Shown piece by piece: positions 1,898 to 23,682 of a stretch of 24,527 nt of DNA. Below the pieces are notes generated by a model. That model did not search any database and was not told the origin of the DNA. It saw only the letters and a program-made list of their open reading frames with translations. The position numbers and the translations under genes are program-made. Every line of letters begins with the position of its first letter. Positions within the stretch are counted from its first letter, which is position 1. Source of the stretch: a virus; the IMG/VR virus record IMGVR_UViG_3300042543_000255, positions 1-24,527 of that record; one strand, given 5' to 3'.

Positions 1898-3004
1898 ATG
1901 GCCGATTCCGCGACGCTCCGCTCGATTCTGGATGACGATTACGCTCCGCTCAGGGGGCTCGCCGCGAAGGCTCTGTCGCAGTTCCGAATGAGCCTCCAGA
2001 GGTACGCCGAGCACCTGGGGCGAGAGCCCACGGTGGCTGATTTGACGGGGATTTCGGTACAGCGGTTCCTTTCTGCCCGCCGGCAGGCGGTCGCTGTCGC
2101 AACCGTGGTCAAGGATAGAACGCATATTGTCGCCCTGTGGGGCCACCTTTTTCGGCTCAGGCGGGTCGAAGTCGCCCCGGCCGCGGTCCTGCCCCCCATG
2201 CGAGCCCCGCGGCGTGTCCCGCGGGCATACCGAGCCCACGAGGTCTCAGCGGTCATCCGGGCCGCCCTGGCCACACCGGGCGGCATCGACGGGCGACCGG
2301 CGGCGATCTGGCACGCGTCGCTCATTCGGGCAGCCTTTGAGACCGCCGAGCGGGTAGGGGCGTTGCTCGCGGTCGAGTGGCGGGATGTTGACCTCAACGA
2401 ACGGACCATTCTTCTCAGGGCCGAGACCCGGAAGGGTGCGAGCCAAGACTTGCTCAGGCCAATATCGCAGGAAACGTGCCGCTGGCTGGCCGAGCTTCGC
2501 CGCGATGCCGGCGACCGGCGGCTCGTCTGGCGATGGGACCGCACACCTACCCATCTCTGGGGCCACCTCCGCCGTATCTGCAAGAGGGCCGGGGTCCAGT
2601 GCCGGGGCTACCACGGGCTCCGCCGGGCAGCCGCGAGCTACATCGCCGCAGCGGGGGGGCTCGGGGAAGCCGCAGCTGCACTCGGGCACGCTTCGCCATC
2701 GACAACCAAATCCCACTACGTCGATCAGACCATCGCGAAACCCACCCGCAGCCATCTCGACATGCTCCCTCACCTCGACATCGGCGACGAGCCGCCCGAC
2801 CCCGTGGCAGACGCCAAGGAAGCCGCCCTGCGGGCTGGCCGGCAGGCGGGGCGGGATCTCGCAGCCCGAGGGGAGCCGTGTCCCGCACGGGCTTCTATAG
2901 ACGCTCTGGCGGCGGGGGCGGGGGTGCCGGTCGAGATGGTAGCCCACTACCGGCGGGGGCTTGTGAGCGGCTGGGCTGCCGGTCAGGAAGACCCGGCCGC
3001 CTGA
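1898..3004 (+). CDS. int: Tyrosine recombinase / phage integrase, 368 aa
   Basis: It catalyses site-specific strand exchange between phage and host attachment sites, through a phosphotyrosine intermediate. Residues about 20-95 form the SAM-like core-binding domain. The catalytic domain shows Arg152 (ETAERVGALL), Lys179 (ETRKG), H239-x-x-R242 (HGLRR), His264 (ALGHAS) and the nucleophile Tyr274 (KSHYVDQT), so the active site appears complete. The start is the ATG at 1898 after AGAGG (9 nt). A C-terminal extension of about 80 residues past the tyrosine (alanine/arginine-rich, ending GWAAGQEDPAA) is longer than in minimal integrases. It is the only confident plus-strand gene, divergent from the excisionase-like gene and convergent with the 66-aa gene. 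I see no convincing -35/-10 pair in front. Confidence 0.95.
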   Translation: MADSATLRSILDDDYAPLRGLAAKALSQFRMSLQRYAEHLGREPTVADLTGISVQRFLSARRQAVAVATVVKDRTHIVALWGHLFRLRRVEVAPAAVLPPMRAPRRVPRAYRAHEVSAVIRAALATPGGIDGRPAAIWHASLIRAAFETAERVGALLAVEWRDVDLNERTILLRAETRKGASQDLLRPISQETCRWLAELRRDAGDRRLVWRWDRTPTHLWGHLRRICKRAGVQCRGYHGLRRAAASYIAAAGGLGEAAAALGHASPSTTKSHYVDQTIAKPTRSHLDMLPHLDIGDEPPDPVADAKEAALRAGRQAGRDLAARGEPCPARASIDALAAGAGVPVEMVAHYRRGLVSGWAAGQEDPAA

Positions 3005-5477: not shown

Positions 5478-5798
5478 TCAACCGAACACAGCCTTCGCGT
5501 ATCGCTGGGCGAGCCGCCTCGCGACGCGTTGCACACGAACGCCGGCATCATTCAGCCACTTCTTCCGAGCCTCACACCCGCACCCGCCCGGCTTGCCCGC
5601 AGTTCGCGTCCACCGCTCGACTCGCTCCTTCGTGACGCCGAACCGAGTGAGCCACCGCTCCACGAAGTCGCCGAGCAAAAACGGGCGCCACGGCTGCGGC
5701 GGGGGCGGGCGGCACTGCCGGAACGTCGGCCGCGACCTCGCCCGGTAGCCGCACGTCGGGCAAGTGAGCGATTTGCTGAAGTCGCAGAGCTGCGTCAT
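5478..5798 (-). CDS. Small cysteine-motif protein, 106 aa
   Basis: The ATG at 5798 overlaps the stop of the fibre-like gene (ATGA) and sets the start. The sequence has C-P-T-C near residue 13, a further Cys near 28 and G-G-C-G-C near 72, followed by EARKKWLND. The G-C-x-C-x-x-R-K-x-x-L-N pattern recurs in small phage proteins of unknown function. The cysteines could bind one zinc. The tail is a basic amphipathic helix (VRVQRVARRLAQRYAKAVFG). Coupling to the fibre-like gene suggests a virion or tail-assembly accessory, but this is inference from position. Confidence 0.6.
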   Translation of the reverse strand: MTQLCDFSKSLTCPTCGYRARSRPTFRQCRPPPPQPWRPFLLGDFVERWLTRFGVTKERVERWTRTAGKPGGCGCEARKKWLNDAGVRVQRVARRLAQRYAKAVFG

Positions 5799-8044
5799 AG
5801 GATGGTCATGCTGTCGCCGAAAGCATTCCCCCAGACGCTCGCGGGCGGGCTGCATAACGGCCCCGTCACACAGTCTGAGCAGTCTTGTATCTCAAGGTCT
5901 TCTACCCACACCATGCACTTCGGAGGGCAATCAATGTCGCAGGCATCCGGCTCTGGCGAGCTGTGTGGCGGAATCGGCACGAACACGCGGCCCAGACTGT
6001 CATGGGCAGAGCACGGAGCGATGTAGACGCTCGGCAGGAACGGGTATGACCATCGCAACACTCCAATCCTCGCCAGTATTCCGCCTGGAGAATACAGGGG
6101 CGAGGACGCCAACAGCATCACATAAGTTCCAGACGGTGGTGCTATGCCGCCCGACGTGTTCACCCACTCAACAGTGATTTCCTCTGGCACCGGGTCTGTG
6201 CCGCGGCAGCACTGGTTGCACGATCGCTCGCCCGCGTAGCCATCCTCCGAATCGTATTCGCCTCCAGGCGTCACGACGGCTGTCACTCCATCGGCGTCGG
6301 TTGCAGTGAACGACAGATCGTCACAGTCTGTGACATTCGTTGTGGATGTCAGCGTCGTGGCGCACGTCTCGGAAGGCATCGGAAAGTCGCTGCTAGTCGA
6401 AAGCACCTCATTCTGGAACAGCACCAGCGGCGGCAGCGATGGCCCTCGATACTCGACTCGGACGGAGCCTCGCAGCCCGTACAGGTTGCCGACGCCACAA
6501 AAGCGGTGCTCATAGATACATCGGCTGGCGTCTGGAGCCGTCTCGAACCCGTGCTCGGCAGTGGCGACGGCCGCGCGTTTCAAGACAAAAGAGCGATCGT
6601 TGTAGGACGTGCCGCAGCACACGGGGAACTCCGGGTACTGCTGATACCCGCTGCCGCCGTTCGTGATCGAGATGGCTGTTATCTGGCCGAATGTCGGGCT
6701 GGTCGGATCGTCATCAACCGTCACGTCGAACGCAGCACCCGACCCCTCGCTGGGCCTCCACACGCTGCCGACCGGAAACACTGACGGCGATTCAAACACA
6801 GTGATCGCGACCGTAGACACATATGGCGGCTCGGTCGCGTCAACGTGGTAGTAACTGCCAGGAGTCTCAACGGCGACTAGCAACGCGCCGGCGGAGGTTT
6901 CGTAGTATGCCCCGCGATTCAGCGCGTTGATTGCTACCGAATGCAGTTCGTCGGTTCGCGAGCCGATGTATTCGCCAGCCGGGCCGGCGACGAGGGGCGA
7001 AACATCCGGCGCGACAAATACCGCTGTAATCGCGCCGTTGCCATCGACCGATTCGATGTCCAGAAACGCATTCACATTTGCGATCCCGTCATCAGCAGAC
7101 GCGAATGTGAGGTCTATGCCCTCGAACTGCTGATACCCGCTGCCGCCATTGAGCACCGTCACGCTGGCAAGTTCGTATAGTTTCTTGTTCGGAGCGGGCC
7201 ACTGATTGGACGGGAGCAGCGTCCACACGGCTTCAAGAGACGCCCCCGAGCCGCCGGTAGTGTTGATCGAAAACACCGGGATCGGCTCATCGTGAACTAC
7301 TCTGGCGGTTGCGATTGCAGCGAGAACCTGAACTCCGTTCGCGCCGTCGTCAAACGTGATCGCCGCCCCTTCTGTGTAGCCGCTGCCGCCGTTGGTGACG
7401 CTGACGGAATCCACCCCCCAGGTAGCGTTGCCGTTGTCGAGCAGCGACACCGTGGCGGTAGCGTTGCCGCTGATCGTCAGCGTAGGCTCGGCTCGACCCA
7501 CATAGAGCCTCGCCGTCGCCGCTTGCTCAACCGTGTCATCCACGGCGGCGGTAATCACAAGATATTCGCCATCGACGTAGCCGCTCCCGCCTGTGGCCGC
7601 CACGGACGCTAGTTGCCAGAAATCCACACCGCAGGCGTTGGGCGCGACGTTGAACGTGGGCGTGAAGGTCGCCCCGCTGCCCTGGCCGGAAAACGAAAGC
7701 GTCGGTGCAGTCCTGCCAAGGATCGCGTATCCCGTGCCCGCGTTGGTGATCGTGACAGTCGATATCGAGCCGCCAGACTCGGTGAGGGTCGCGGCGGCAT
7801 TGTTGCCGAAGCAACTGGTGAAAATGGGCGACAGCCGATTTGGACCTTCCCTGGAATCAGGGAATCCGCTGAGCGTGACCGTTACCGTGTCGGGGAGCGA
7901 CCCTTGCGTGCATAGGCTGCACCCGCAGCACGGGCTGCATGGTGAGCCGAGCATCAGCCCCATCGGGTACATCGACACCGCGAACGCCAGCACCGCCAGA
8001 AGCGGCAGCGACGCGGGCTCAACAGCGGCGAGAAACTCGATCAT
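5795..8044 (-). CDS. Cysteine-rich tail fibre-like protein with GGSGY repeats, 749 aa
   Basis: The ATG at 8044 overlaps the preceding stop by 4 nt, which fixes the start. Residues 10-32 are hydrophobic (SLPLLAVLAFAVSMYPMGLM), followed at once by the cluster CSPCCGCSLC. The body is beta-rich with at least five copies of a motif like S-V-x-V-T-N-G-G-S-G-Y (near residues 102, 152, 220, 302 and 475), seen in phage tail fibres and other surface beta-repeat proteins. I count about 23 cysteines, including CC, CxxC and CNQCC groups in the last 250 residues. As the largest gene after the tape measure and tail tip genes, it is the best candidate for host recognition. The membrane-like N-terminus and cysteine content are odd for a virion protein. 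Confidence 0.55.
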   Translation of the reverse strand: MIEFLAAVEPASLPLLAVLAFAVSMYPMGLMLGSPCSPCCGCSLCTQGSLPDTVTVTLSGFPDSREGPNRLSPIFTSCFGNNAAATLTESGGSISTVTITNAGTGYAILGRTAPTLSFSGQGSGATFTPTFNVAPNACGVDFWQLASVAATGGSGYVDGEYLVITAAVDDTVEQAATARLYVGRAEPTLTISGNATATVSLLDNGNATWGVDSVSVTNGGSGYTEGAAITFDDGANGVQVLAAIATARVVHDEPIPVFSINTTGGSGASLEAVWTLLPSNQWPAPNKKLYELASVTVLNGGSGYQQFEGIDLTFASADDGIANVNAFLDIESVDGNGAITAVFVAPDVSPLVAGPAGEYIGSRTDELHSVAINALNRGAYYETSAGALLVAVETPGSYYHVDATEPPYVSTVAITVFESPSVFPVGSVWRPSEGSGAAFDVTVDDDPTSPTFGQITAISITNGGSGYQQYPEFPVCCGTSYNDRSFVLKRAAVATAEHGFETAPDASRCIYEHRFCGVGNLYGLRGSVRVEYRGPSLPPLVLFQNEVLSTSSDFPMPSETCATTLTSTTNVTDCDDLSFTATDADGVTAVVTPGGEYDSEDGYAGERSCNQCCRGTDPVPEEITVEWVNTSGGIAPPSGTYVMLLASSPLYSPGGILARIGVLRWSYPFLPSVYIAPCSAHDSLGRVFVPIPPHSSPEPDACDIDCPPKCMVWVEDLEIQDCSDCVTGPLCSPPASVWGNAFGDSMTIL

Positions 8045-9625: not shown

Positions 9626-12552
9626 CAGCCCGTCCCCGCGAGGATGTCCACCTTCTCGGCGTTCAGCTTGGCGAGCTCTCGCCGCATCTTCTCAAGCTCG
9701 GCAGTCTGCTTCTTAGCCTCCGCGATCGCCGGGTCTTCCTTCAGCGTGTCAAAGAACGCCGAGATGCCGCCGCTGCGGATGTCGTTGATCTCGACCGAGC
9801 CAGTGCGAACGGTGGCGAGTTCTTCGGCGCGGGCGAGTTCGATCTCGAACTGGCGGTCGCGGATCTTGCCTTCGCCCTCGGCGATGCGATTGTTGATCTG
9901 CTCCAGTTGCCGAAGGTCAGCGAGACGATCTTCAAACAACTCTTTCTGCCGTTCGACTTCCGCCTCAAACGCCTCGCGGTTGAGGATGCCGTCTTTCACT
10001 TGCTCCTGGGCAGCGGCAATGCCATCGGCAAGTTGCTGGGCCGCGATCGCTCCTTCGTTGCCGAACTCGCCCGCCTTGTCCACGAGAGAACTGAGTCCTC
10101 TGTCCACGCTCGCGAACGCGGCGTCGAAACCCTGCTCGAATCCCTGTGCGGCTTGGTCGGCCTGCTCTTGCAGCCCGGCTTGCAGTTGGTCGAGTTGGGC
10201 GAGCCGGCCCGCGAGGGCGTTGGCCTGCTCGGTCGCACCATTCTCGCGAGCGGCAGCGAGATCAGTCTGAACGCGAGCGATCTCGGATTCGATTGCGTTG
10301 AGGTCTTGCTCGATCTGCGGAATCTCGTTCGCCTTGGCGAGCAAGCCATCGACGCGGCGGGTGTTCTCTTCAATTCGAGCGGCGGCTTGCTCGGCGATTG
10401 CGATCTGATCGCTGTACGCCGCTTCGGCTGCCGCCGCCTCGCGACGGAAAACTTCTTCGTTGATGAGTCCGCGATCGAGCCGCTCCTGCAAGTCAGTGAT
10501 CGCGTTCTGGTACTGCAACGCGGCATCGAATCCTGCCTGCCCAAACTTGGCAGACTCGTCGATTGCCTTCGATACGTTGTCGGTGAATCCTTGCAAAAAC
10601 TTCTCTCGCTCGCCTGCCGCCTTGCGTTCTTCCTCGGTTAGCTCCTCAATGTCACTTCCAAGGTTCTGAGTCGCCTTGGACGCCTGCTGAGCCGACCGGT
10701 CGATGCCTAGAAACTTCTCGGCAATCGTAAGGAGGCGACCGACAACCCCGCCGATAGCGTTCGCGATAGTCGAGAAGACCGACGCTACTGCGCCAAATGT
10801 CGAACTGATGATGTCGCCCAGCGTCTGAAGAAACGGCGACTGTGCGACAAGTTCAGAGAATCGCGAGACAAGCCCGCCGACGAACTCACCGGCTCTCTGG
10901 AATGCTGTCGTGATGATCGTCACAACGCGGGAGATTGTCTCGCCCAGGGCTCCGACGTTTGCAGCGATAGCCCCGATGGGAGTGAAGGACACGACCCATT
11001 CAGTCACCGATACGGCTGCATTGCTAATGCCTTGCAGGAAGTTGAATATGCCCTCGTATAAGGGCTCCAGTGCTTGCGAAACTTCTTGCACGATCACGGC
11101 GAACGGCTCGAACACGGCACCAATCGTTCGCCCAAAGTTGCCGATATTGACGCCGATCAGTTCGATGATGCGACCGATCTGCGTTAGCAGCGGCTCAAGG
11201 ATTCGCCCAATGGGATCAACGATAGCCGTGATGCCCGCCGTGACCTCCGCAAGCCCGCGAGCGATGCCGTCACCGAGCCCGACGAACGGGAGCAGCAGCG
11301 AGGTGCCGAGCCCTTCGGTAGCGAGGCTCAGTGTGTCAATGCTTCCGCCGAAGTCTGCGAGCCGTTCGCGATCCAGATCTGACACGGCACGCCCGAACCT
11401 CTCCATGTCTGTCGCGGCAAGCCCGAGCTCATTGAAGAACGGCAAAAGCTGAACGCCGCTGCGGCCAAACAAGGCGATCGCCGCTGCTGACCGCTGGGCA
11501 GGGTCTTCGATCGCAGCCAGCCGCTCGCCGATCAAGTCGATCCGCTGTTGCTCCGAGAGTGCCCCGAAGTCTTGAACCGACACGCCGAGCCGCTGCAATG
11601 CCGCCTGGGCTTTCTTGCTCTCTTCGTCCGCACCCGCGAGCGTGTTCTGAAGCCGGGCGAACGAGCCGCTCAACTGCTCGATCGAAACGTCTGCCCTGCG
11701 GCCCGCTTCCTCCAGCACTTGCACGAACTCAAACGACACGCCCAACTGCGTCGCCAAGCGACTGAGACGCTCTACGCGATCCTCCAGGGCCACGAGTCCA
11801 CGCACCACCGCTGTCGCACCGGCCGCGAATGCCGTGATGCCCGCGAGGGCGAGCGTGAACGGGTTGATGAGAGCGGTGACTGAAGACACAAGCCCCTGGA
11901 AGCCCGCCGTCAATCCGCCCGCGAAGATCCGCGACAGCCCCTCGCTCGCACTCGCGATGCCCGAGATCCGCCCCGCGATGTTGCCCAGCGGGCCGGGCAG
12001 CACCGAGAACACGCCAGAGAGTTCGTTGAACTTGAGCGTCGTGCTCTCGGCTGCGGTGTCGATCTCTTTCTGCTGCACCGCCAGCCCGCGAGCCGCACGC
12101 TCCGCGTCGGTCAGCCCCTTCGCGGCGTTCTCGGTCGCCCGGTTGTAGGTCTCCAGCGAGATCCGCCCGGCGTTCAGTTGCTCAGTCAGTTCCGCCTGAG
12201 CACGGTCGAACCGCTCCAGCGTTGTGAGATTGGCTTCGGTGATTTGCTGCGCTCGCTGGAACGCGGCAGCCTCTTTGTTCGCGGCTTCGGTTAGCCGCTC
12301 GAAGGCAGCGGCGAACTGCGTCGCAGCCCCAGGCCCGCCGTCGCGAAGGGTGTTGATAAGATCCTGCGACTGCTGCTCAAAGCGGGCCTGAGCCGCCGCC
12401 GCCGCTTCGCTCCCGCCGGAAAACTTTGCGAACTGACTCGTCAACTTCTCGGCTTGATCGCCCAGCCCCACGAGCGCACGCTGCACCGGATCGAGCCGTA
12501 GGCCGCTGGCGTCAGCCGTCACCCGCAACGCCAGTGAGAGTACGTTAGCCAT
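9625..12552 (-). CDS. Tail tape measure protein, 975 aa
   Basis: It sets tail length and is later ejected with the DNA. Evidence is its size, its position right after the chaperone pair, long alanine/glutamine/glutamate-rich coiled coils at both ends, and a hydrophobic glycine-rich centre (about residues 180-270 and 410-640). A motif of the form L-x-x-G-x-I-x-x-E-x-F/Y followed by a helix occurs three times, near residue 126 (LNAGRISLETYNRA), near 695 (LDRGLINEEVFRRE) and near 865 (VKDGILNREAFEAE). At the usual 1.5 angstrom per residue the length predicts a tail near 145 nm. The start overlaps the gpT-like stop by 8 nt. I see no lytic domain, as some tape measures have. Confidence 0.93.
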   Translation of the reverse strand: MANVLSLALRVTADASGLRLDPVQRALVGLGDQAEKLTSQFAKFSGGSEAAAAAQARFEQQSQDLINTLRDGGPGAATQFAAAFERLTEAANKEAAAFQRAQQITEANLTTLERFDRAQAELTEQLNAGRISLETYNRATENAAKGLTDAERAARGLAVQQKEIDTAAESTTLKFNELSGVFSVLPGPLGNIAGRISGIASASEGLSRIFAGGLTAGFQGLVSSVTALINPFTLALAGITAFAAGATAVVRGLVALEDRVERLSRLATQLGVSFEFVQVLEEAGRRADVSIEQLSGSFARLQNTLAGADEESKKAQAALQRLGVSVQDFGALSEQQRIDLIGERLAAIEDPAQRSAAAIALFGRSGVQLLPFFNELGLAATDMERFGRAVSDLDRERLADFGGSIDTLSLATEGLGTSLLLPFVGLGDGIARGLAEVTAGITAIVDPIGRILEPLLTQIGRIIELIGVNIGNFGRTIGAVFEPFAVIVQEVSQALEPLYEGIFNFLQGISNAAVSVTEWVVSFTPIGAIAANVGALGETISRVVTIITTAFQRAGEFVGGLVSRFSELVAQSPFLQTLGDIISSTFGAVASVFSTIANAIGGVVGRLLTIAEKFLGIDRSAQQASKATQNLGSDIEELTEEERKAAGEREKFLQGFTDNVSKAIDESAKFGQAGFDAALQYQNAITDLQERLDRGLINEEVFRREAAAAEAAYSDQIAIAEQAAARIEENTRRVDGLLAKANEIPQIEQDLNAIESEIARVQTDLAAARENGATEQANALAGRLAQLDQLQAGLQEQADQAAQGFEQGFDAAFASVDRGLSSLVDKAGEFGNEGAIAAQQLADGIAAAQEQVKDGILNREAFEAEVERQKELFEDRLADLRQLEQINNRIAEGEGKIRDRQFEIELARAEELATVRTGSVEINDIRSGGISAFFDTLKEDPAIAEAKKQTAELEKMRRELAKLNAEKVDILAGTG

Positions 12553-13609: not shown

Positions 13610-14044
13610 TCAGGTCAGCGAGCTAGTGCGAACCAGCGTGAGCACAGCCTGCCCACGCACCGCGTCATTGGTCGCGAGCGTCAGTGTCGAGCTAGCCACC
13701 GTCGCATAGAACGCCGTCCCGGCGACAGCAGTCGATCCGATCAGAGCAGTGCCGCCGATTGCGATGTAGACCGTGGCGGTTGCGCCGTCGAGAAGGATGG
13801 TCTTCCCCAGGTAGTCGAACGTGATCTGCCGGCCCGACCCGCCGTCCTCGGCAGGGATCACGAGCGGACGATCCATCGTCGCAGCGAGTTCGCCCGCAGA
13901 CTGCGACAGGTGTGCCACGTCGATCCGCGAGTCTGCCCCGGCGGCAGGATTGGTGTTGCTGATGACGATGTTCGTCGCCGTGTAGTTGTTGGCACCGAAG
14001 CGAAGGATTGTGCCGGAACCATCGTGCGGGGTCGAGAATGACAC
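13610..14044 (-). CDS. Major tail tube protein candidate, 144 aa
   Basis: A small beta-rich protein with G-S-G-T-x-L start, ISNTNPAAG, then SRIDVAHLSQSAGE and ITFDYLGKTILL. The I-D-V-x-x-L-S/D element followed by R-Q-I-T-F-D is a common feature of siphophage tube proteins. It directly follows the DUF3168 tail terminator and precedes the chaperone pair, the canonical tube position. The GTG start at 14044 has AGGAG 10 nt upstream, inside the end of the previous gene. The strong ribosome binding site suits an abundant virion protein. Confidence 0.65.
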   Translation of the reverse strand: MSFSTPHDGSGTILRFGANNYTATNIVISNTNPAAGADSRIDVAHLSQSAGELAATMDRPLVIPAEDGGSGRQITFDYLGKTILLDGATATVYIAIGGTALIGSTAVAGTAFYATVASSTLTLATNDAVRGQAVLTLVRTSSLT

Positions 14045-14468: not shown

Positions 14469-15298
14469 GTGCCGATGGTTCCCGTGGATCGCTGCGAGAG
14501 GGTGTCGAGGGCTTGCTCCAGCGAGAGCCGCAGTTCCCGCTGGAGGATCTCGGCGACGGTGGGCTGCGTGCGTGCCCACGCGGTCTTGAGGGGCGGCTGC
14601 CCGTCACTGCCGCCCGCCGGCATCGCCGGAATCGTGATCGGCTGACGCGACTTCTTGAAGAAGGCGTTCGGATAGCCCGGCTCAGTGATGAAGCCTCTTT
14701 CGCCGCCTCGGAACTTGTTGATCTTGAACGGCCCGAGCCGGTTGTAGCTGCTCGCGTAGAAGTAAGAGTTCGGGTCGTTCACGAGATGTGAGGTAACGCC
14801 GTGCCCGCGAACCGAATGCCCCTGCACGGTGAACGTCTTGCCATTGCGTGTCATCGTGTACGTGCGTCGATCGAAGCCCGGCTTGTTGTAGCCAGGGCGG
14901 TTGTATGCCTTCGGCGGCGACGGTAGGCGGATCTGCCGGGGCTGCGTGCCCTCTTCGAGCCACCACTGGTGAAATGCCCGGTCAGGGCCGGCTCGCACCG
15001 TGCCGCCGGCAGCACTTACGGAGTCCGAAAGCCCCGCACGTCGGAACCCGAGCACCGCAACCGCCGCCCCGTCCTTCGCGTAGACGAGGATCTTCTTCGC
15101 TACCGCACGCCGCAGGTTGCCCGTCGGCCCGAGCGGCGTGGTCTGCTTCAACGCTTGGAACGCAGGCTCGATCGCCTTCGTGAGTGCCGCCTTCAGAATG
15201 CGAGCCTTGTCAGCCGGCGAAAACAGCCGGCCGATGTCCTGCTGCAACTGCCGCAGTTCCGCCATCTCGGCGGTGATCTCAATGCCCGCGACTGCCAT
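14465..15298 (-). CDS. HK97 gp10-like neck/tail protein with a large insertion, 277 aa
   Basis: The ATG at 15298 overlaps the head-closure stop (TGATG); the longer frame to 15532 is a shadow of that gene. The N-terminal helix, TPLGPTGNLRRAV, FHQWWLEEGTQPR (residues 109-121) and the C-terminal helix VAEILQRELRLSLEQAL match the HK97 gp10 family, usually about 130-160 aa. Residues about 125-220 are an additional segment rich in Tyr, Asn, Pro and Arg (KAYNRPGYNKPGFDRRTY, SYFYASSYNRLGPF) lying between the E-E-G-T motif and the closing P-A segment. The extra part may add a surface loop or domain to the neck. Confidence 0.8.
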   Translation of the reverse strand: MAVAGIEITAEMAELRQLQQDIGRLFSPADKARILKAALTKAIEPAFQALKQTTPLGPTGNLRRAVAKKILVYAKDGAAVAVLGFRRAGLSDSVSAAGGTVRAGPDRAFHQWWLEEGTQPRQIRLPSPPKAYNRPGYNKPGFDRRTYTMTRNGKTFTVQGHSVRGHGVTSHLVNDPNSYFYASSYNRLGPFKINKFRGGERGFITEPGYPNAFFKKSRQPITIPAMPAGGSDGQPPLKTAWARTQPTVAEILQRELRLSLEQALDTLSQRSTGTIGT

Positions 15299-15621
15299 CA
15301 GTCCACCCTCTCCGTGCACAGCAACTCGTGCTCGCTGCGGTTCGCGTGTTCCAAGAGCGTCGTGATCTCCAGCACCCGACCACGCCACAGAAGCCGCATC
15401 GTCTGCACGAGCCCCGTCACGTACCGCAGCCGCACCCGGTGCGTGCCTTCGGTCTGCTGCTGCCCCAGGAGCAGCACCTCGCGAGACGAGAGCCCTTCGA
15501 CGCTCGCCCACCGCTCGGCGAACGTCGCCCACTCCAGCGTGGTCTCACCGAGCGAGTTGCGTCGCTCGGTTGCCTGCTGAATCGTCACCCGCTCGCGAAG
15601 CCGCCCCGGATCAAGAGCCAT
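15298..15621 (-). CDS. Head closure / head-tail adaptor protein (Phage_H_T_join), 107 aa
   Basis: MALDPGRLRERVTIQQATER followed by NSLGETTLEWATFAERWASV and a central S-S-R-E-x-x-L-L-G-Q is the recognisable pattern of SPP1 gp16 / HK97 gp9-type closure proteins. V-R-L-R-Y and L-W-R-G-R-V-L-E-I-T-T continue it. It forms the ring below the connector that retains DNA and docks the tail. The start overlaps the previous gene by 11 nt. Length is typical. Confidence 0.88.
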   Translation of the reverse strand: MALDPGRLRERVTIQQATERRNSLGETTLEWATFAERWASVEGLSSREVLLLGQQQTEGTHRVRLRYVTGLVQTMRLLWRGRVLEITTLLEHANRSEHELLCTERVD

Positions 15622-16039
15622 ACATCACCAGCGTGTAAGACGCGGTGCCCGCCGTGCCAAAGACGTTGATCGAAAACGAGACAGTCTCCAACGCTTCCGA
15701 CACCGCGACCTGACCGGCACGCGAATAGATCGTCCAATCGTTCACGCCGCAGCCGCCGATGCCGTCGCACGCCACGAGCGTCGGGCCTGACGCCTGAAAC
15801 GCCACTCGCGAGACGCTGGAGAACGACACGATGTCGCCCGCTGCATTGCGGTAGGTTGTCGGGGCGATCGACACCGTAGACACGGCTGTGCCCACGGTGC
15901 CCGTCACGACCGCGATCTTGCCGAAGTCATACTCGGTCGCGTGCGTCAGGTTGATAGTCTTCATGCTGCTCGCGCCGCCCGCCACGGTCGAGTCATTGAA
16001 CGATACGTCGATTCCGAATCGGCCCTTGACGTTGCTCAT
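15611..16039 (-). CDS. Hypothetical virion-region protein, 142 aa
   Basis: The ATG at 16039 overlaps the connector stop (ATGA), with GGAG 6 nt upstream. The protein is a predicted all-beta, Ser/Thr/Val/Gly-rich domain (DFGKIAVVTGTVGTAVSTVS, then GDIVSFSSVSRVAFQASG and SFSINVFGTAGTASYTLVMY) with two nearby cysteines (ACDGIGGCG). It resembles the 142-aa protein after the capsid gene in length and composition, though I cannot show homology. An insertion between connector and closure genes is unusual; a decoration or neck-whisker role is a guess. Confidence 0.65.
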   Translation of the reverse strand: MSNVKGRFGIDVSFNDSTVAGGASSMKTINLTHATEYDFGKIAVVTGTVGTAVSTVSIAPTTYRNAAGDIVSFSSVSRVAFQASGPTLVACDGIGGCGVNDWTIYSRAGQVAVSEALETVSFSINVFGTAGTASYTLVMYGS

Positions 16040-16632
16040 CGGTAGCTCCCCCACTTCGCCGAATCGAGCAACGCCTTCACGCCGAAGGGAATCTCCGACA
16101 GGCTCACCGCGTCAGCCGCCATGCGACGCTCATACCAGAGCCCGACCAGCCAGAGGATCGCCGACTTCACCCGCTGCTCAATGCCCGAGCCGTCGGAACT
16201 TTTGCCGCCCCACCATGTCACCGTCACCGCGTTGTAGTCCAGCAGGTGCGAGGGCCAGGAGCCGTTGTAGTTCGTGCGGAGCACACCCGGCACGCTGTCT
16301 CGATCGACCCGGTACTGATTCGTCGCGAGCGTGGCGGTGCTCTGATTCTCCAGCGTGTAGGTCACGCTGACAGCCGTCGTGGTGCCGGCGGTCGCCATCG
16401 GCGGGCGGGGCAACTCGATCTCCACGGGGAACGAGTCCAGCGTCATCCGGTACTGCGTATGCACGAACGTCTCGTCGCAGTACGCCTCGCACCACTCGCG
16501 AGCCGCCTTGATGTACGCCGCGATCAGGGCATCGTCGGTATCGACATCGACCCGGCAGTGCGACTTCGCCTCGGCGAGCGTGACCGGCTCAACCGCCGGC
16601 TGCGTCAGAGTCTTGAGGCTGCGGTATCGCAT
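16036..16632 (-). CDS. Head-tail connector protein (phiE125 gp8 / HK97 gp6-like), 198 aa
   Basis: I chose the ATG at 16632 (AGGA 6 nt upstream); an ATG-frame extension to 16677 lacks such a site. EPVTLAEAKSHCRVD, then DDALIAAYIKAAREWCEAYC, the strand QYRMTLDSFP, IELPRPP, VTYTLE and the C-terminal helices RVKSAILWLVGLWYERRMAA form the well-known phiE125 gp8-family pattern. These proteins form the ring beneath the portal. It overlaps the 79-aa gene by 44 nt, suggesting tight coupling. Confidence 0.88.
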   Translation of the reverse strand: MRYRSLKTLTQPAVEPVTLAEAKSHCRVDVDTDDALIAAYIKAAREWCEAYCDETFVHTQYRMTLDSFPVEIELPRPPMATAGTTTAVSVTYTLENQSTATLATNQYRVDRDSVPGVLRTNYNGSWPSHLLDYNAVTVTWWGGKSSDGSGIEQRVKSAILWLVGLWYERRMAADAVSLSEIPFGVKALLDSAKWGSYR

Positions 16633-16828
16633 TCGGTTTCCTGCCGCGTCGCGGTCGTGCGTCAGCCCGCTCGGCATCGGGCTCGACCGTCGCCGCCTCG
16701 ATCAAATCCATCTGCGGTTCCCGCACGGCGATGCCGTCGCGAATAAGCCGCCGTGCCGTCTCGTCTTCGCAATCAACCACCCGGCCGACGGTGTAGGTCG
16801 AGTAGTTCTGCGTCAGTTTTATTTTCAT
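16589..16828 (-). CDS. Small phage protein, 79 aa
   Basis: The ATG at 16828 overlaps the glycosyltransferase stop by 4 nt; the longer frame upstream is only its shadow. MKIKLTQNYSTYTVGRVVDC then DETARRLIRDGIAV is the compact fold (V-x-L-x-x-x-Y-x-x-x-x-x-G-x-V-V-D ... A-x-x-L-I-x-x-G) found in many small phage head-region proteins of unknown role. The second half is disordered, with Arg/Pro-rich PRRGRKPNAIPQPQ. It lies between the glycosyltransferase and the connector. Confidence 0.75.
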   Translation of the reverse strand: MKIKLTQNYSTYTVGRVVDCEDETARRLIRDGIAVREPQMDLIEAATVEPDAERADARPRRGRKPNAIPQPQDSDAAGG

Positions 16829-17559
16829 GATCCAGGGGCACTCCATGCAGTTTTGGGCTTGCCGTTCGCGGTGTAGTCGCCGACGTACTGAAACACGGGC
16901 TTCTGGAGATCCTTGCCCGGCCAGACCGAGACCCACTCGCCGTGACCGATCGCGATCCGGGGGGAGATGTAGACGCGGTTCCCGCCGGCTCGGAACTGTT
17001 TCCAAAAGTGAATGTCGGCGTCAGTTCTTCCCGATTCGTAGTCCCCGTCAGCATTCGGGATGTCTTGGAACCAAGGCTTCGGCGTTCGCTTCAACGCCTT
17101 GGTCGAAATCAGCGTGCAGCCGAAGTGAGCCGAATCGACTTCCTGCACAGGCTCGGCGAACCAGCTCATCGGCAGTTCGGTTGCCCCTCCCTCGGGCGGC
17201 TTGTCGAGCGTGCCGGGCAACGTGAACATCGGGCGACCGTCCTCCCGTTTGACTTGCAGCGGGGCGAGGGCGTCGCACTGAAAAGCCATCGCGATCGCGA
17301 CCAGTTCCTCGACCGTCTTCTTGTCCCAAAACGAATCCATGTCGGTGCAAAGGATGTACTCGGTTTGGTCAACGAACTGGGAGAGGCACCGGGACAACAC
17401 CTGACCCCACAGAGCACCCTGCCCTAGCGTCGGGCGGATGCCGAGTGGCATGAGGGCTTGAGCCCAGCCGAAGACATTCGAGAGCGGGCCGAATCGCGGG
17501 CCGCTCATCACGCACTCGATCCGAACATCGACATCCGTACCGCCGACCTTGACGATCAT
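16825..17559 (-). CDS. GT-A-type glycosyltransferase in the head operon, 244 aa
   Basis: The ATG at 17559 has GAGGG 4 nt upstream; a GTG-started extension to 17601 would begin inside a strong hairpin. Evidence for a GT-A fold is the nucleotide/metal motif D73-M-D75 after a hydrophobic strand (EYILCTDMDSFW), an acceptor-side segment VDSAHFGCTLISTKAL, TDADIHFWKQ, and a metal-ligand type His in IAIGHGEWVSV. The N-terminal part (SNVFGWAQALMPLGI, LWGQVLSRCL) resembles phage-encoded family-2-like enzymes. It would transfer a sugar from an NDP-sugar; the acceptor may be a virion protein, host glycan or modified DNA. Overlap with the 79-aa gene shows it is part of the structural operon, not a later neighbour. 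Confidence 0.8.
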   Translation of the reverse strand: MIVKVGGTDVDVRIECVMSGPRFGPLSNVFGWAQALMPLGIRPTLGQGALWGQVLSRCLSQFVDQTEYILCTDMDSFWDKKTVEELVAIAMAFQCDALAPLQVKREDGRPMFTLPGTLDKPPEGGATELPMSWFAEPVQEVDSAHFGCTLISTKALKRTPKPWFQDIPNADGDYESGRTDADIHFWKQFRAGGNRVYISPRIAIGHGEWVSVWPGKDLQKPVFQYVGDYTANGKPKTAWSAPGS

Positions 17560-17633: not shown

Positions 17634-18062
17634 TCAGCCGCTGTACTTCGCGAGCACGCCCTTCGCGGAAGCCGTCTCGGGGCCAGCCTCACCCTTGCCC
17701 AGCCGAGCCACGATGGTCGTGGCCAGCGAGGTAGCGGGAGTGGCATCGACCTTGACATATCGGCCCTTGCCGCGAAGGTCAACATCGAGCCGCACCACGC
17801 TGGGCTGAGCCGTCACGGCCACGCTCGCGGCGGGAACCGCCACGGTGTAGACCGAGGAGCCCGCCGTGTTGGTGTCGCCCTGCGAGAGCGTCAGCACGTT
17901 GAGGATCGACGCCGAGGTGTTGGCCGGGGTCGCCGAGACCGCCACCACCACATCGACTGACGCGTAGTCATAGCCGAGGGTGTCGATAGTCAGGGTCGCT
18001 GTGCCGGCAGCACTCGTGACCGTCGTGCCAACGACCGTCTTCGTAGCTTCGAGGTGATTCAC
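17634..18062 (-). CDS. Hypothetical head protein, possible capsid decoration, 142 aa
   Basis: The GTG start at 18062 lies 31 nt after the capsid stop, with AGGAG 10 nt upstream. The protein is beta-rich, small-residue rich and low in aromatics (VVGTTVTSAAGTATLTID, then YASVDVVVAVSATPANTSAS and SSVYTVAVPAASVAVTAQPS), ending in a short basic helix. Abundant small beta proteins directly after the capsid gene are often decoration or cement proteins. The hairpin that follows would keep its expression linked to the capsid. No sequence family is recognised. Confidence 0.65.
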   Translation of the reverse strand: MNHLEATKTVVGTTVTSAAGTATLTIDTLGYDYASVDVVVAVSATPANTSASILNVLTLSQGDTNTAGSSVYTVAVPAASVAVTAQPSVVRLDVDLRGKGRYVKVDATPATSLATTIVARLGKGEAGPETASAKGVLAKYSG

Positions 18063-18093: not shown

Positions 18094-19464
18094 TCACGAG
18101 GCGAACTTGAGGGCGACGATGGGGCCAGCCTTGGTGGCATCGCCGAGGTCGTGAGCAACCATCGCGACGCGAGCCGTGGCGAACGTCAGCAGCTGGTCGA
18201 ACTCGATGAACCGGCTGGCGTCGGTCTTCACGCTGATCTCGCGGCGGGTGCCCATCGTGCAAGCCTGCGAGAGATCGCCGAACAGGCAAGCGATCTGATT
18301 CGCGGTGCCGGTCAGGCGGCTCTCCAGGGGATGCACAAGCACCACCGGGAAGCCCAGGAAGGACAGGTTCGCACCGCCAGCCACGTCGGCCTGATTGTTG
18401 CCGCTCGCAGCCATCATGAGCCGCAGCATCGAGGAACCGTAGCCGGCGGGGCTGATGTACCACTTGGCATTCCGCCGAGCGTACAGGGGCAGCCGGGCGA
18501 CCACGTTCGTGTAGTCCGAGAGGTCGAGACCGCTCGTGCCACCGCCGAAGGTGTTGTTGCCGGTGTCAGCCGTCACCACGCTCGCGGCGTGCGTGCCGTC
18601 GTTGATGGCGACCGCCACGCCCACCGTGCCGTGATAGAGCGAGCCGTTTCCGGTTCCGATGAACCCGGCGTTGTCGTAGGCTTCACTGAACGCCTGGGCT
18701 GTCTCGACGGCCATTGCGTCACCAAGTGAAATCACAGAGTCTTCCATGAGGCTCATGGGCACCCTGTTGTCCACGCCCCACAGCTTCGCCACGAGTTGCA
18801 CGTTGTCGAAGGTCACGTTCGTGCTCTCGGGAGCAGCGTTCTCACCGATCGGCTTCGCCGACAGACCGCCGGTGCGACGGGCGATCAACAGCGTGTCGCT
18901 GTTCATCGTCACGTTGCGGGCGTTCGCCGGGAAGGCACCGAACTCTTCGACCAGCCGGATGATCTCGCTGGAAAGCTCGTCATTGGTCAGCACACCGCCG
19001 AGCGAGTTGATTCCGCCAGCCTGGGCACGGAAGTTGACGCCGTGATCGTGGCACCACCGCCGGGCTTCGTCATCGTTGAACAGGCTCGCCTTGGCAGCCA
19101 TGCCCGCACGATATGCCCGCTCTTCGCAGCGGAAACCGCGAAGGGGGCGATGATTCTTCGGAACGGCGTAAACCTTGGCGCGACTCTCCACGGCGGGGGT
19201 CTCCTCGGTGGCTTCGATCTTCTTGGCGGGAGCGGCACGCTCCAGAACGCTGCGGAGCTCAAGCTCCTTGGCCTGCACGCGGGCCAGGAACTCGATCCGC
19301 TCCTTCAACTTGTCGGCCCGAACTTCGAGCGACCGGAGCGAAGCCTCTTGCTCTTCGGTCATCGGCTCAGCGGGAGCCTCACCCTCGGGAGCGTCCTCGG
19401 TCATCGCCTCCATCTCGGCGACAACGCCAGCCAACTCTTCGAGCAATGCCTTGATCTTGTCCAC
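18094..19464 (-). CDS. HK97-fold major capsid protein, 456 aa
   Basis: I chose GTG at 19464 (AGGAG 8 nt upstream) over an upstream in-frame start at 19533. Residues 1-100 form a charged helical delta-type scaffolding domain (VDKIKALLEELAGVVAEMEA, then KLKERIEFLARVQAKELELR). In HK97 this part is removed by the prohead protease, here encoded two genes upstream. The HK97-fold part begins after about residue 110, with SLGGVLTNDELSSEIIRLVE, VPMSLMEDSVISLGDAMAVE (E-loop/spine helix region), YISPAGYGSSML, LGFPVVLVHPLES and the closing strand RVAMVAHDLGDA. No catalytic residues are expected. Gene order is canonical. Confidence 0.93.
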   Translation of the reverse strand: MDKIKALLEELAGVVAEMEAMTEDAPEGEAPAEPMTEEQEASLRSLEVRADKLKERIEFLARVQAKELELRSVLERAAPAKKIEATEETPAVESRAKVYAVPKNHRPLRGFRCEERAYRAGMAAKASLFNDDEARRWCHDHGVNFRAQAGGINSLGGVLTNDELSSEIIRLVEEFGAFPANARNVTMNSDTLLIARRTGGLSAKPIGENAAPESTNVTFDNVQLVAKLWGVDNRVPMSLMEDSVISLGDAMAVETAQAFSEAYDNAGFIGTGNGSLYHGTVGVAVAINDGTHAASVVTADTGNNTFGGGTSGLDLSDYTNVVARLPLYARRNAKWYISPAGYGSSMLRLMMAASGNNQADVAGGANLSFLGFPVVLVHPLESRLTGTANQIACLFGDLSQACTMGTRREISVKTDASRFIEFDQLLTFATARVAMVAHDLGDATKAGPIVALKFAS

Positions 19465-19494
19465 GAGGGAGGCTCCTGTAGTCGGGTTCGCGGC

Positions 19495-19508
19495 AACGCG
19501 ATCGCGTT
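19495..19508. repeat. 14-bp perfect palindrome in the capsid leader
   Basis: AACGCGATCGCGTT is a perfect palindrome in the 86-bp gap between the zinc-ribbon gene and the capsid start, 31 bp upstream of the GTG. It could be a protein binding site. With no loop it is unlikely to be a useful RNA hairpin. It contains GCGATCGC, a frequent word in some GC-rich genomes, so chance is possible. Confidence 0.4.
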
Positions 19509-19550
19509 CGCCTACCCCGAAACTAGGAGCCACGCCCCGGAACCATGCAG

Positions 19551-19733
19551 TTAGGCACGCTCGGCAGTAAACAACTTTCGCCGCACTTCAGTGCCGTGCA
19601 CGATCTGCTTGTCGGTGCAGCCGCACCGCTGGCACCGCAGATAGCGAGTCTGATACTCGCCGCTGCGAACGCTCGACGCGACGGCGTACTTGCCATCGCG
19701 GCACCGGGGGCACGAATCACCACTAGCGGCCAT
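19551..19733 (-). CDS. Small zinc-ribbon protein, 60 aa
   Basis: Two C-x-x-C knuckles (C8-P-R-C11 and C34-Q-R-C37) separated by 22 residues define a zinc ribbon, with an aromatic strand YQTRYLRCQRC between. The tail HGTEVRRKLF is basic. The start overlaps the protease stop by 11 nt. Similar mini-ribbons, related in look to transposase or transcription-factor zinc ribbons, occur in phage head operons without known function. Nucleic-acid binding is the natural guess. Confidence 0.7.
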   Translation of the reverse strand: MAASGDSCPRCRDGKYAVASSVRSGEYQTRYLRCQRCGCTDKQIVHGTEVRRKLFTAERA

Positions 19734-20736
19734 GCTGCCTCAGATACTCGCGAATCTCTGCGGCACGCGACCGGGCAAGCGAACGCCTCGCCACCTCGAT
19801 CTCCTGCTGCTGCCGGTACTGGTCGAATGACCGCTGTGCAACTTTCACATCGGCATCGGGATACGCCGGGAACGTCACCGGCCCGACATCCAGGAGCGAG
19901 TCGATCCGCTGGATCGTCCGCACGCTGCGACCGTCCTCGACCGCCCACGAGTCGCCGCCGCTTGGCACGGTGAACGAGAACGACGAGCCCTTCACGATGC
20001 CCGCCCGAATGTTGCTCGCGATGTCCCGCCCGTAGGTCGTGTCGGGCACCGGGAACTCATACCGCAGCCCAACCTCATCGACCGTCATCCGCAGCGTGCC
20101 GGGGTAGCGGGCGAGGGGGTAGTTCGGGTCGTGATTCCACAGGGCTCGCGTCTCCAGCGGCTTCCGCCTGCCGCGACGCTCGGCGACCAGCCCGAACGCA
20201 CCGGGGTCGATCCGCTCCACGAAGTCGCCCAGGTCGAGGGAGAGCACGCCGAACTTCGCTGCGTAGCCAACGACGTATTCGCGTTCGCTGCCGTCATCAT
20301 CGCTGCGGCTCTCGACCGCGAGCAGCGGCACCGCCGACTCGATCTCGTCAATCGCCAAGGAACGCCGTTCGATGTTGCCCATGATGCTCCTGCCTTCCTC
20401 GTCTGCCGCTTCGATCTGCTTGGTCAGTTTGCTCGCCCACGCTTGCCCCGGATCGCCGCCCCACAGAGCCCACGCGATCCGGCCCGCACTCGGGAAGCCG
20501 TCCTCGCCGGGGCTCCAGCCCTCGCCCTGCTTGTCCACTTCGTGCCGGGCGAAGTAGCTCGCCATCCGCTTCGCCGTGTCGGGCGAGATGTTCGTGCCGT
20601 TCGACAGGTCGCGTGCTCGGGCAACGCCGACTGCCGTGCCGCCTCGGTTGTATTCGCTTCGCCACGCGAGCCCCTTCGCTGCTTCCTCCCGCACGCCGCT
20701 CGGCGGGCTGAAGTCGATGTGGTCATACTTAGCCAC
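19723..20736 (-). CDS. HK97-type prohead protease (S78) with an N-terminal accessory domain, 337 aa
   Basis: The GTG at 20736 has GGAGG with a 7-nt spacer and overlaps the portal stop by 8 nt; a frame extension to 20787 has no such site. Residues about 120-310 match the S78 family: ERRSLAIDEIES, YVVGYAAKFG, ERIDPGAF, the histidine motif ALWNHDPNYPLAR, GTLRMTVDEVGLRYEF, and the serine motif VKGSSFSFTV. It matures the capsid and removes the delta domain. Residues 1-115 are a separate domain (VGVARARDLSNGTNISPDTA, MASYFARHEVD, GRIAWALWGGD) that I have seen in other phage proteins but cannot name. An internal ATG at 20382 preceded by AGGAG could give the protease domain alone. Confidence 0.88.
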   Translation of the reverse strand: MAKYDHIDFSPPSGVREEAAKGLAWRSEYNRGGTAVGVARARDLSNGTNISPDTAKRMASYFARHEVDKQGEGWSPGEDGFPSAGRIAWALWGGDPGQAWASKLTKQIEAADEEGRSIMGNIERRSLAIDEIESAVPLLAVESRSDDDGSEREYVVGYAAKFGVLSLDLGDFVERIDPGAFGLVAERRGRRKPLETRALWNHDPNYPLARYPGTLRMTVDEVGLRYEFPVPDTTYGRDIASNIRAGIVKGSSFSFTVPSGGDSWAVEDGRSVRTIQRIDSLLDVGPVTFPAYPDADVKVAQRSFDQYRQQQEIEVARRSLARSRAAEIREYLRQHGR

Positions 20737-22051
20737 CCTTCCGCCTCCGCCCCTTCCGCTTCGGCTTGCCGTAGGCGTTCTCCTCAACCGGCGGCGGCTC
20801 GGGGAGCGGGGCGGTCTCTTTCACCACGATCTCCTCGACCACCGCCGGCTCCTCGACCACCTGGGCCGCCTTGTCGAGCGTGGTCATGTTCAACTGCACG
20901 AACCTGACATCGCCGCTTTCGACCGGGTTGAGATTCTCCAGCGAGCGGATCTCATTCACGCTCAACACGCCAAGGTTCCACATCGTGTTGTAGTAGCTGG
21001 CTCGCCCGGCAGCGTCGGCCCGCAGCACGCCGCGAGTGTCGAACTCCGCGAAGTATTCATCGTCGCCTTCAAGCAAGTCGCGAGCGATCGAAGACTCGAT
21101 GCGACGCAGATACGGCATCAGCCCGTTCGTCAGGAAGTCGAGCGATTGCTGTTCGATATTCGAGAACGACGAACGCGTGAGGTCGCCCACCAGATGCGGC
21201 GGCACGCCGAAGAGCCGACACACTTCCTCGACTTGAAACCGGCGAGCCTCAAGGAACTGGCTCTCTTGGTTGTTCCCGCCGAGCTCCGAAACTTTGAGCC
21301 CGCCCTGCAATACTGCCGTTCGGTTGCTTCGGTCTGGGCCGCGATGAGCCCTCTCCCACTGATTCCGCGTGTTCTCAGCCGCCTCGGGCGAGAGCATCTG
21401 ATCGGTGGAAAGGATCACGCCCGGCCGGGCACCATTCCCGAAGAACGTCGCCCCGTGGATCTCGCACGCCCGAGCCAGCCCGATCGCGTCGCGGGCGAGC
21501 TCAATCGTGCTCATCCCGTTCACGCCGTCATCCGACATCCCACGCACCGACATCACCGCGTCTTGGGTGTAAACCGTCGAAGAGCCAGACGCCTCGCGGT
21601 ACGTGTACCGCAGGCGGTTGTTTTCAAGTTGCTCGGTCTTCACCCGGCTCGGGTGCAGCGGCACGATCTCGGTGATCGCCCCGCCGCTGTAGACCTTCTC
21701 ATCAAGAGCGAACCCGTGCGAGAGTAGGTGCAGCATCATCTGCTCGCGCCACTCGAACGAGGTCTGCCACGAGTTCGGCTGCGTGTGCAAAAGCCGATAG
21801 AGCGGATGCTCGCGGGCGACCTCTTTGCCACCACCCGGAAGCCGGCGGTAGAGGTGCAGCGGCAGACCGGCGACGCTGGTCGAAAGCACGCGGATGCACG
21901 CCAGCACCACGGTCGACCGGAGAGCCGTCTCGGCGTCCACCTTCACGCCGCTGGGGTTGCGGTTGCTCGAAGCCCAACTGCCCGACTCATAGTCCCAGTT
22001 GCGGGAGTCTTCGCCGGGGAGCCACAAAATGCGGTGAGCGTTGGCGATCAT
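20729..22051 (-). CDS. HK97-family portal protein, 440 aa
   Basis: This dodecameric vertex protein is the DNA gate and the nucleation point of the head. VDAETALRSTVVLACIRVLS, VAGLPLHLYRR, HPLYRLLHTQPNSWQTSFEW, then VIPL-like TEIVPLHPSRVK and VCRLFGVPPHLVGDLTRSSF are hallmark segments of the family. LGVLSVNEIRSLENLNPVES is the conserved C-terminal motif. The ATG overlaps the TerL stop (ATGA). The tail is Pro/Glu-rich and then basic (KPKRKGRRRKGG). Length is typical. Confidence 0.95.
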   Translation of the reverse strand: MIANAHRILWLPGEDSRNWDYESGSWASSNRNPSGVKVDAETALRSTVVLACIRVLSTSVAGLPLHLYRRLPGGGKEVAREHPLYRLLHTQPNSWQTSFEWREQMMLHLLSHGFALDEKVYSGGAITEIVPLHPSRVKTEQLENNRLRYTYREASGSSTVYTQDAVMSVRGMSDDGVNGMSTIELARDAIGLARACEIHGATFFGNGARPGVILSTDQMLSPEAAENTRNQWERAHRGPDRSNRTAVLQGGLKVSELGGNNQESQFLEARRFQVEEVCRLFGVPPHLVGDLTRSSFSNIEQQSLDFLTNGLMPYLRRIESSIARDLLEGDDEYFAEFDTRGVLRADAAGRASYYNTMWNLGVLSVNEIRSLENLNPVESGDVRFVQLNMTTLDKAAQVVEEPAVVEEIVVKETAPLPEPPPVEENAYGKPKRKGRRRKGG

Positions 22052-23682
22052 AGGATGAGGATGGAGGGTTCGGCGGCGGGCTTGTTCGTGATCTGCGAAG
22101 ACTCCCAGCCACCGAGAGCAAAGATCAGAGCCACGATCCCGTCGATGCGGCCCGTCGATTTCTTCTTCACCGGCCGCACGTCCTCAAACGAGTTCGTCTC
22201 CACCGTCACATTTGCCGACATCCACGAGAGCACCGGGTTGCCACCGTGGCGGATGCGGTTCTGAAGCACGAGCGATTCGAGCCGCTTCGTGCCCGAACTC
22301 ATGCCCCGGAACCCTTGGCTCCATCCTGACACTTTGAGCCCCGCCCCTTGCAGTTCCACGGCAAGCTGCACCGCCCCGTTGAGATCCATGTAGACGTGCT
22401 CGATCTGGTGCGTCTTGGCGTACTCCAGCACGAACTCCCGAATCTTCGAGTGGTCAATCACGTTCCCGTCGGTCGCGGTGATGTACCCCGAGTTGACCCA
22501 ATGCTGGAACGGCTGGCGGTCGGTTCGCTCCCGCTCCATGATGAGATCGCGGGGAGCCCAGAACATCGCATCGACCTCGAACTCGTCACCCTCGCACGGG
22601 TACAGGGCGACCATCGCGGAGAGGTCGGTGCTCTTCGACAAGTCCATCCCGAGGATGCACTTCCGCCCGGCGAAGGGCGAAGTCGGGCCGGCGGAACACG
22701 CGGCCCACTTCTCAGGATCGAGCCAGCGGTTCGTGCTCTCAGTCCAGACCCCGAGCGAGTAGCGGAGCCACCCGTTCAGCTTGGTCGCTTTGTTCTTCGC
22801 TTCGCGGGCATCCGCCGCGAACGATTCCTCGGTCATGGTGACGCCCATGCCGGGATTCACCCGCCGCCATGTTGCCGGGTCGAAGTAGTCCTCGGTGCCG
22901 TCAGTTCTCGCCCCGAAAATCTTCCCGTAGAAGCGGGGATCGTAGTTCGGGTCGGCGGCGGTCAACTCCGCGTACTCGTGTTGCTCCCAGCAAATCGTGT
23001 CGCGGCGGTCGCCGGCCGTGGTGATCGTGCAGAGCAGCGGCTCCCGCCGGGAGCGACCCGAGTACCGCAACGCCTCGAACAGCCGGCGATCGGGCCACGC
23101 GTGCAACTCGTCGCAGAAGACGAACGAATAGGACGGGCCTTCCGCCGCCCCGGCATCTCGCGAGATCACCCGCAGGCTCGATCCCGTGCTCATGCACACG
23201 ATCGTCTTCCGCGAATCGACCACTTCGAGCGACGCCGCCAGTTCGGGCGACCGCTTCACCATCGCGGCAGTCTCGTCAAAGATGATCGCCGCCTGGTTGC
23301 GATCCTTCGCCGCGATGCACCCGAGCTCGCCCTCACCCTCCATCAAGAGATGCCAGATCGAGAGGCACGAGAGGAGCGTGCTCTTCGCGTTCTTCTTGGG
23401 AACCTCCAGATACGCGAGCCGATACCGCCGCAGCCCGTCCTCGGTTCGCCACCCGTAGAGCGGCTCGATCACGTCCTGCTTGTGCCACTCCAAAAGCCGC
23501 ATCGGCTCGCCGGCCTTCGCGGTCGGGGAGTCTTTCGTGTGGCAGCACACCGACTCCAAGAATCCGACCACGAGATCGGCGGCGTCTTGATCGTAGGTGT
23601 AGCCCGCGACCCGCTCAGGCTCACGCCTTGCGGGCAGCCTTGAGGGCTCGGAACTTGTCGATCGCGCTTTCCGCCTTGGCAT
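22048..23682 (-). CDS. terL: Terminase large subunit, 544 aa
   Basis: It is the ATP-driven packaging motor and headful or cos nuclease. The ATPase domain has Walker A E93-V-P-K-K-N-A-K-S-T102, Walker B VFCDELH (D191, E192) and the coupling motif TITTAG (219-224). The RNase H-like nuclease domain has D347 (ILGMDLSKSTD), a second acid in HVYMDLNGA and a final Asp in GRIDGIVALI. This is the Terminase_1 / HK97-type large subunit, of usual length. The ATG at 23682 overlaps TerS by 62 nt; I found no ATG or GTG nearer the TerS stop that keeps the conserved start region, so the long overlap is probably real. Confidence 0.96.
   Translation of the reverse strand: MPRRKARSTSSEPSRLPARREPERVAGYTYDQDAADLVVGFLESVCCHTKDSPTAKAGEPMRLLEWHKQDVIEPLYGWRTEDGLRRYRLAYLEVPKKNAKSTLLSCLSIWHLLMEGEGELGCIAAKDRNQAAIIFDETAAMVKRSPELAASLEVVDSRKTIVCMSTGSSLRVISRDAGAAEGPSYSFVFCDELHAWPDRRLFEALRYSGRSRREPLLCTITTAGDRRDTICWEQHEYAELTAADPNYDPRFYGKIFGARTDGTEDYFDPATWRRVNPGMGVTMTEESFAADAREAKNKATKLNGWLRYSLGVWTESTNRWLDPEKWAACSAGPTSPFAGRKCILGMDLSKSTDLSAMVALYPCEGDEFEVDAMFWAPRDLIMERERTDRQPFQHWVNSGYITATDGNVIDHSKIREFVLEYAKTHQIEHVYMDLNGAVQLAVELQGAGLKVSGWSQGFRGMSSGTKRLESLVLQNRIRHGGNPVLSWMSANVTVETNSFEDVRPVKKKSTGRIDGIVALIFALGGWESSQITNKPAAEPSILIL

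Follow-up and report, generated by a model that had tools for sequence, protein, structure and literature searches.

A glycosyltransferase gene kept in the head operon of an uncultured aquatic phage lineage and its probable role in virion glycosylation

The window, i.e., the whole stretch of DNA that was analyzed, is an IMG/VR-type virus record of 24,527 bases with a GC content of 64%. Its late operon runs on the minus strand, where the genes for TerS, TerL, portal, S78 protease, a 60-aa Zn-ribbon-like protein, HK97 capsid and a 142-aa protein (g142) are followed by those for a glycosyltransferase (GT), a 79-aa open reading frame (ORF), a gp6-like adaptor, a 147-aa protein (g147), the head completion protein, neck and tail proteins and the tape measure (Table 1). 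Pfam and PHROGs matches for TerL, portal, S78 protease, HK97 capsid, gp6-like connector and HCP back this head-operon context. The Zn-ribbon-like ORF is retained in near relatives. The window also carries genes for a tyrosine recombinase, a calcineurin-like metallophosphoesterase and, at the fiber position, a protein that belongs to no Pfam family, contains glycine-rich repeat motifs and reaches only about 31-32% identity in two long relatives with the same head genes.

Table 1 Features of the late operon and further genes of the window, with base-modification genes of relatives in the last line
Feature	Position	Strand	Basis or remarks
GT-A-fold glycosyltransferase gene, predicted, 244 aa; D73-D75 (DxD), D142, D182, H206	16825..17559	-	alignment and predicted structure
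79-aa ORF; start inside GT stop codon; downstream of GT in relatives too	16589..16828	-	weak DUF7302 / connector-like matches
gp6-like head-tail adaptor (Phage_connect_1, phrog_40 Ad1)	16036..16677	-	Pfam/PHROGs
147-aa protein (g147), S/T-rich (23% S+T), without family	15611..16054	-	candidate acceptor
Head completion protein (Phage_HCP, Hc1)	15298..15621	-	Pfam/PHROGs
142-aa protein (g142), directly upstream of GT, 24% S+T	17634..18062	-	phrog_5707 (unknown); decoration-like by position; candidate acceptor
HK97-fold major capsid protein (MCP), 12.5% S+T	18094..19533	-	candidate acceptor
60-aa Zn-ribbon-like ORF between protease and capsid genes	19551..19733	-	
S78 prohead protease	19723..20787	-	
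Portal protein	20729..22051	-	
Large terminase (TerL)	22048..23682	-	
144-aa protein, 23% S+T	13610..14044	-	major tail protein by position alone; candidate acceptor
Tyrosine recombinase, strand opposite to late genes	1898..3004	+	Phage_integrase, E 1.8e-13
Calcineurin-like metallophosphoesterase, 395 aa	3748..4935	-	
Fiber-position protein, 767 aa	5795..8098	-	
Sporadic C5-cytosine methyltransferase / TET/JBP genes among relatives	G005 (L096) 10006-11331; G012 6846-7319; G021 3788-4261		

In the ORF list the GT frame begins with GTG at 17601. The starts of homologues favor the ATG at 17559, and an SD-like GAGGG lies upstream of the start; the frame ends with TGA at 16825. The earlier note had placed the gene correctly and had rightly recognized its D-x-D and late histidine, found here as T-D73-M-D75 and G-H206-G-E. 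It had also seen the gene coupled by ATGA to the head-to-tail joining genes. The overlap is real, but the partner is the 79-aa ORF and the adaptor lies one ORF further on, so that coupling to the joining genes runs via one small ORF. An overlapping stop and start was retained in all 54 near GT homologues and in 108 of 112 wider ones. Judged from these overlaps, translation of the GT is coupled to that of the 79-aa ORF, and the coupling is conserved in relatives.

On its own, the window protein is hard to place. A single-protein search found nothing above threshold in Pfam, NCBIfam or PDB sequences, the score for PF00535 (12.2 bits) remaining below the Pfam cut-off of 23.3. A weak phage match led to a protein of cyanophage S-TIM54 noted as 'GT', whose relatives make up the large cyanophage family phrog_1574; several depositors name members of it glycosyltransferase. 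The window protein matches phrog_1574 with an E-value of 8e-4, 52 of 55 aligned family members match it too, and profile-profile comparison by hhalign gave an E-value of 8.2e-6 over 178 columns with all motifs in register. In the alignment of 55 homologues (A4), which includes the cyanophage group at 16-21% identity, D73, D75 and H206 are invariant, and so are D142, F146-G147, P162-W163-F164, D182 and G205-H206 across both groups. Invariance down to such low identity is far beyond chance, and a fortuitous DxD and histidine in the ORF was ruled out on this ground. L523, a contig binned as Candidatus Paceibacter, encodes a distant homologue at the corresponding place in its operon (positions 1657-2832; family-profile match E 2.4e-46), which carries an N-terminal SAM methyltransferase domain fused to the GT homologue and scores 29.6 for PF13632 (Glyco_trans_2_3, GT2-type), above the cut-off of 27. 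The profile link, the invariant residues, this homologue and the predicted fold together close the gap left by the single sequence.

AlphaFold (AF2) run on the 55 homologues yielded a model with a pLDDT of 83.2 and a pTM of 0.83; with a shallow alignment, whose sequences were 82-99% identical, the pLDDT was 34, so that the deep alignment was needed. For this model 30 PDB matches were obtained at E<=0.001, nearly all of them glycosyltransferases or related sugar-nucleotide enzymes. They include COLGALT1 (1.7e-7), the LH3 GT domain, STIV A197 (4.6e-7), Mnn9, mimivirus R699, GalNAc-Ts and TarS/TarP, and BFVD structures likewise match. According to the model, the window gene product is a GT-A-fold glycosyltransferase with a Rossmann-like nucleotide-sugar fold. 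Structure prediction, which the earlier note had proposed as a check on its GT-A assignment, thus bears that assignment out: the model matches solved glycosyltransferases and shows the nucleotide-site fold.

The position of the gene proved equally stable. In the 80 loci found via the GT, the order capsid, 142-aa protein, GT, 79-aa ORF and adaptor was present wherever the contig reaches, and in 119 wider loci, most of them at 49-80% identity, the upstream neighbor was MCP or g142 and the downstream neighbor the 79-aa ORF or the adaptor, contig ends being the exceptions. Since these loci were first found through the GT, the search was repeated with the adaptor, taking in loci whose contig extends 1 kb or more upstream of it. 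The GT lay directly upstream in all 71 near loci and in all 60 distant ones, and the distant loci carry more weight because the near loci are often the same contigs as those found with the GT. The adaptor-led searches exclude GT-led searching as the source of this position.

Of all proteins in the head-tail module the GT shows the highest conservation, with a median identity to the window of 60%, followed by Hc1 (59%), adaptor (56%), portal (49%), TerL (36%) and MCP (35%); the adaptor-found loci give the same ranking. GT distances correlate with those of adaptor (Mantel r 0.75), Hc1 (0.71) and MCP (0.71), with permutations at or below 0.14, and these values come near those obtained when adaptor, Hc1 and MCP are correlated with one another (0.75-0.84). 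By gene order and protein distances, the GT gene is a vertically inherited core gene of the head-tail module. The view that it is not stray cargo therefore holds: conservation beside the capsid genes was examined in relatives of the lineage, where the gene was never missing or moved and its distances track those of its neighbors.

The lineage so defined consists of uncultured lake and ocean phages and is large, with 547 matches in one IMG/VR scan and at least 600 in another. Among 50,697 phage records there was no convincing GT match except the weak cyanophage one, and no cultured phage with the gene. A pattern-based scan of bacterial genomes for the GT found none, and an adaptor-based scan found two: of 80 more distant adaptor-bearing contigs in bacterial genomes, 78 lack the GT and only L477 and L523 have it, which shows that the gene marks one lineage. 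L477, a 14.9-kb contig of a Planctomycetota MAG, stands alone among bacterial-genome contigs in having the whole syntenic module and hints at Planctomycetota as host, with the caveat that it was binned from a metagenome.

The same data bear on the idea that the protein is mainly structural, i.e., a neck or scaffold component of GT-A fold in which catalysis is secondary or lost. It is conserved like the adaptor and head completion proteins and placed among them, as such a component would be. Nevertheless, D73, D75 and H206 are invariant in very distant homologues, of which the one seen in its context, in Synechococcus phage Sf-FS3, lies outside the head operon. The invariance of the metal site across distant homologues favors an enzyme and disfavors a purely structural role. 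Furthermore, the GTs of mycobacteriophage Corndog were not found in virions (PMC4351075). We regard a mainly structural function as very improbable.

If the protein is an enzyme, its acceptor may be sought outside the particle. Phage GTs for modification of the host surface are well known, and the tyrosine integrase in the window indicates that the phage may be temperate. The GT could thus be a passenger of the late operon that alters a host surface glycan (LPS, capsule or sheath) for superinfection exclusion or lysogenic conversion. Conversion genes, however, tend to be variable accessory genes that the prophage expresses, whereas this gene is embedded in the late head operon of every relative, translationally coupled and co-inherited. 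No membrane segment is evident in its 244 residues and no flippase or anchor partner adjoins it, and a role at the host surface is therefore unlikely.

Phage DNA GTs are also common, and the substrate could be hypermodified phage DNA, with 5-hmC arising through a C5-methyltransferase and TET or through a dUMP/dCMP hydroxymethylase. Companion genes were surveyed in 26 long relatives, whose records are fragments. A C5-cytosine methyltransferase occurs in three and a TET/JBP protein in two of them, never together, and a thymidylate-synthase-like hydroxymethylase in none of these fragmentary records, all 26 of which contain the GT. A DNA glycosyltransferase system would be expected to bring companion base-modification genes whenever the GT is present. 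Their sporadic occurrence disfavors glycosylation of DNA, to which we give as little credit as to the structural role.

The survey revealed other companions. In 17 of the 26 long records, including the distant half of the lineage, there is a second GT-A-like gene, which has 294 aa in G005 and is 40-91% identical across these records. Some members additionally have a GT2-like gene of 234 aa and a methyltransferase gene of 209 aa, the latter found in five of the 26. The methyltransferase gene and these two further GT genes are contiguous in G005, G002 and G006; G003 and G014 have all three as well, but partly apart from one another. The window, which is incomplete and short of that region, shows neither the second GT nor the methyltransferase; since the records of the relatives are fragments as well, absence of companion genes means little. 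In Sf-FS3 (L341, positions 4842-6669), the phrog_1574 homologue stands three genes after a prolyl-4-hydroxylase, and in cyanophages the two may form a hydroxylate-then-glycosylate pair. For the GT family of the window a collagen-type hydroxylase pairing was rejected, PF13640 being found in none of the 26 relatives.

Glycosylation of the virion is the best explanation of the GT and, in our judgment, probably the correct one. A phage-coded GT gene is present in the structural operon, and systems of the Che8/Corndog type have such a gene in or with theirs. A small, soluble, metal-dependent GT-A enzyme would be made together with head and head-tail proteins and, during late expression, would transfer a sugar from the host nucleotide-sugar pool to a virion protein, be it capsid, g142 or tail tube, at Ser/Thr (or other) residues before or during assembly. 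The second GT, joined in some members by the methyltransferase, may extend and cap the glycan. We infer catalysis, donor, a virion protein as acceptor and this extension and capping. Operon position is evidence of co-expression and not of acceptor identity, and the candidate acceptors in Table 1, picked by position and S/T content alone, are no more than suggestive. The place of the gene in the head operon and a conservation exceeding that of the capsid suggest that phages of this lineage routinely glycosylate their own particles as they are built. More tentatively, and with considerable doubt, virion glycosylation could be an obligate step of head or neck morphogenesis rather than an optional shield. 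The GT would then be a morphogenetic core enzyme as indispensable as the maturation protease, and a very common group of aquatic siphophages would have obligatorily glycosylated particles.

A few mycobacteriophages are known to glycosylate their virions, with a reported effect on immune recognition. For an aquatic lineage, animal antibodies are no obvious pressure. Should the GT glycosylate the virion, the sugars would have to benefit assembly, stability or adsorption, or else help the phage to evade grazing or defense. For phrog_1574, listed by PHROGs as of unknown function, the match to the GT suggests a function. No paper on this GT family in a head operon was found in the open-licence literature. 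What looks new is that, in an uncultured lineage of very large size, a GT is an obligate part of the head-tail module and its most conserved one. The process as such is already known: the earlier note had called phage-coded capsid glycosylation little described, but a 2023 report described it in Che8, Corndog and Myrna (Freeman et al. 2023, as cited in PMC12363180), and in Corndog, too, GT genes lie inside the head operon (PMC4351075).

Among the systems compared, COLGALT1, the LH3 GT domain and mimivirus R699, all GT-A enzymes, are the best solved structural matches by E-value, and COLGALT1 and LH3 are Mn2+-dependent protein glycosyltransferases. At 10-13% identity the resemblance is at the level of the fold, and no collagen-like acceptor was identified. 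STIV A197 (PDB 2c0n), a top-five structural match with a TM of 0.66 by target length, is a minimal stand-alone GT-A protein, essential and proposed to glycosylate the STIV capsid protein, which is known to be glycosylated (PMC10551542). Unlike the GT, it belongs to an archaeal virus of another realm, shares 14% identity and is not part of a tailed-phage head operon. The phrog_1574 proteins of T4-like cyanophages (S-SSM7, Sf-FS3, S-TIM54) have the same DxD, D142, PWF, D182 and GH motifs. They differ in their low identity and, in Sf-FS3, the record inspected, in gene location; compared with them, members of the GT family are extended by about 35 aa at the C-terminus, and a loop that separates the first two conserved blocks is missing from the GT family. 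A further parallel is provided by the mycobacteriophages (Corndog gp35-gp38, Che8 gp110), which likewise encode GTs. Capsid and tail-tube proteins are reported as glycosylated there (Freeman et al. 2023, as cited in PMC12363180; PMC4351075), and in Corndog glycosylation of the capsid reportedly requires gp38 (PMC12363180, citing Freeman 2023). Glycans are thus reported on Corndog and Che8 virions, whereas the lineage described here is known from its genes. In Corndog, an O-methyltransferase, two GTs and a GlcNAc-transferase are encoded between the portal and protease genes, inside the head operon (PMC4351075), and the GT, GT and methyltransferase set in some relatives and the methyltransferase-GT fusion in L523 resemble this arrangement. 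Unlike Corndog, however, the present lineage universally has a single GT between capsid and head-tail adaptor, and its methyltransferase and other GTs, where present, are located elsewhere.
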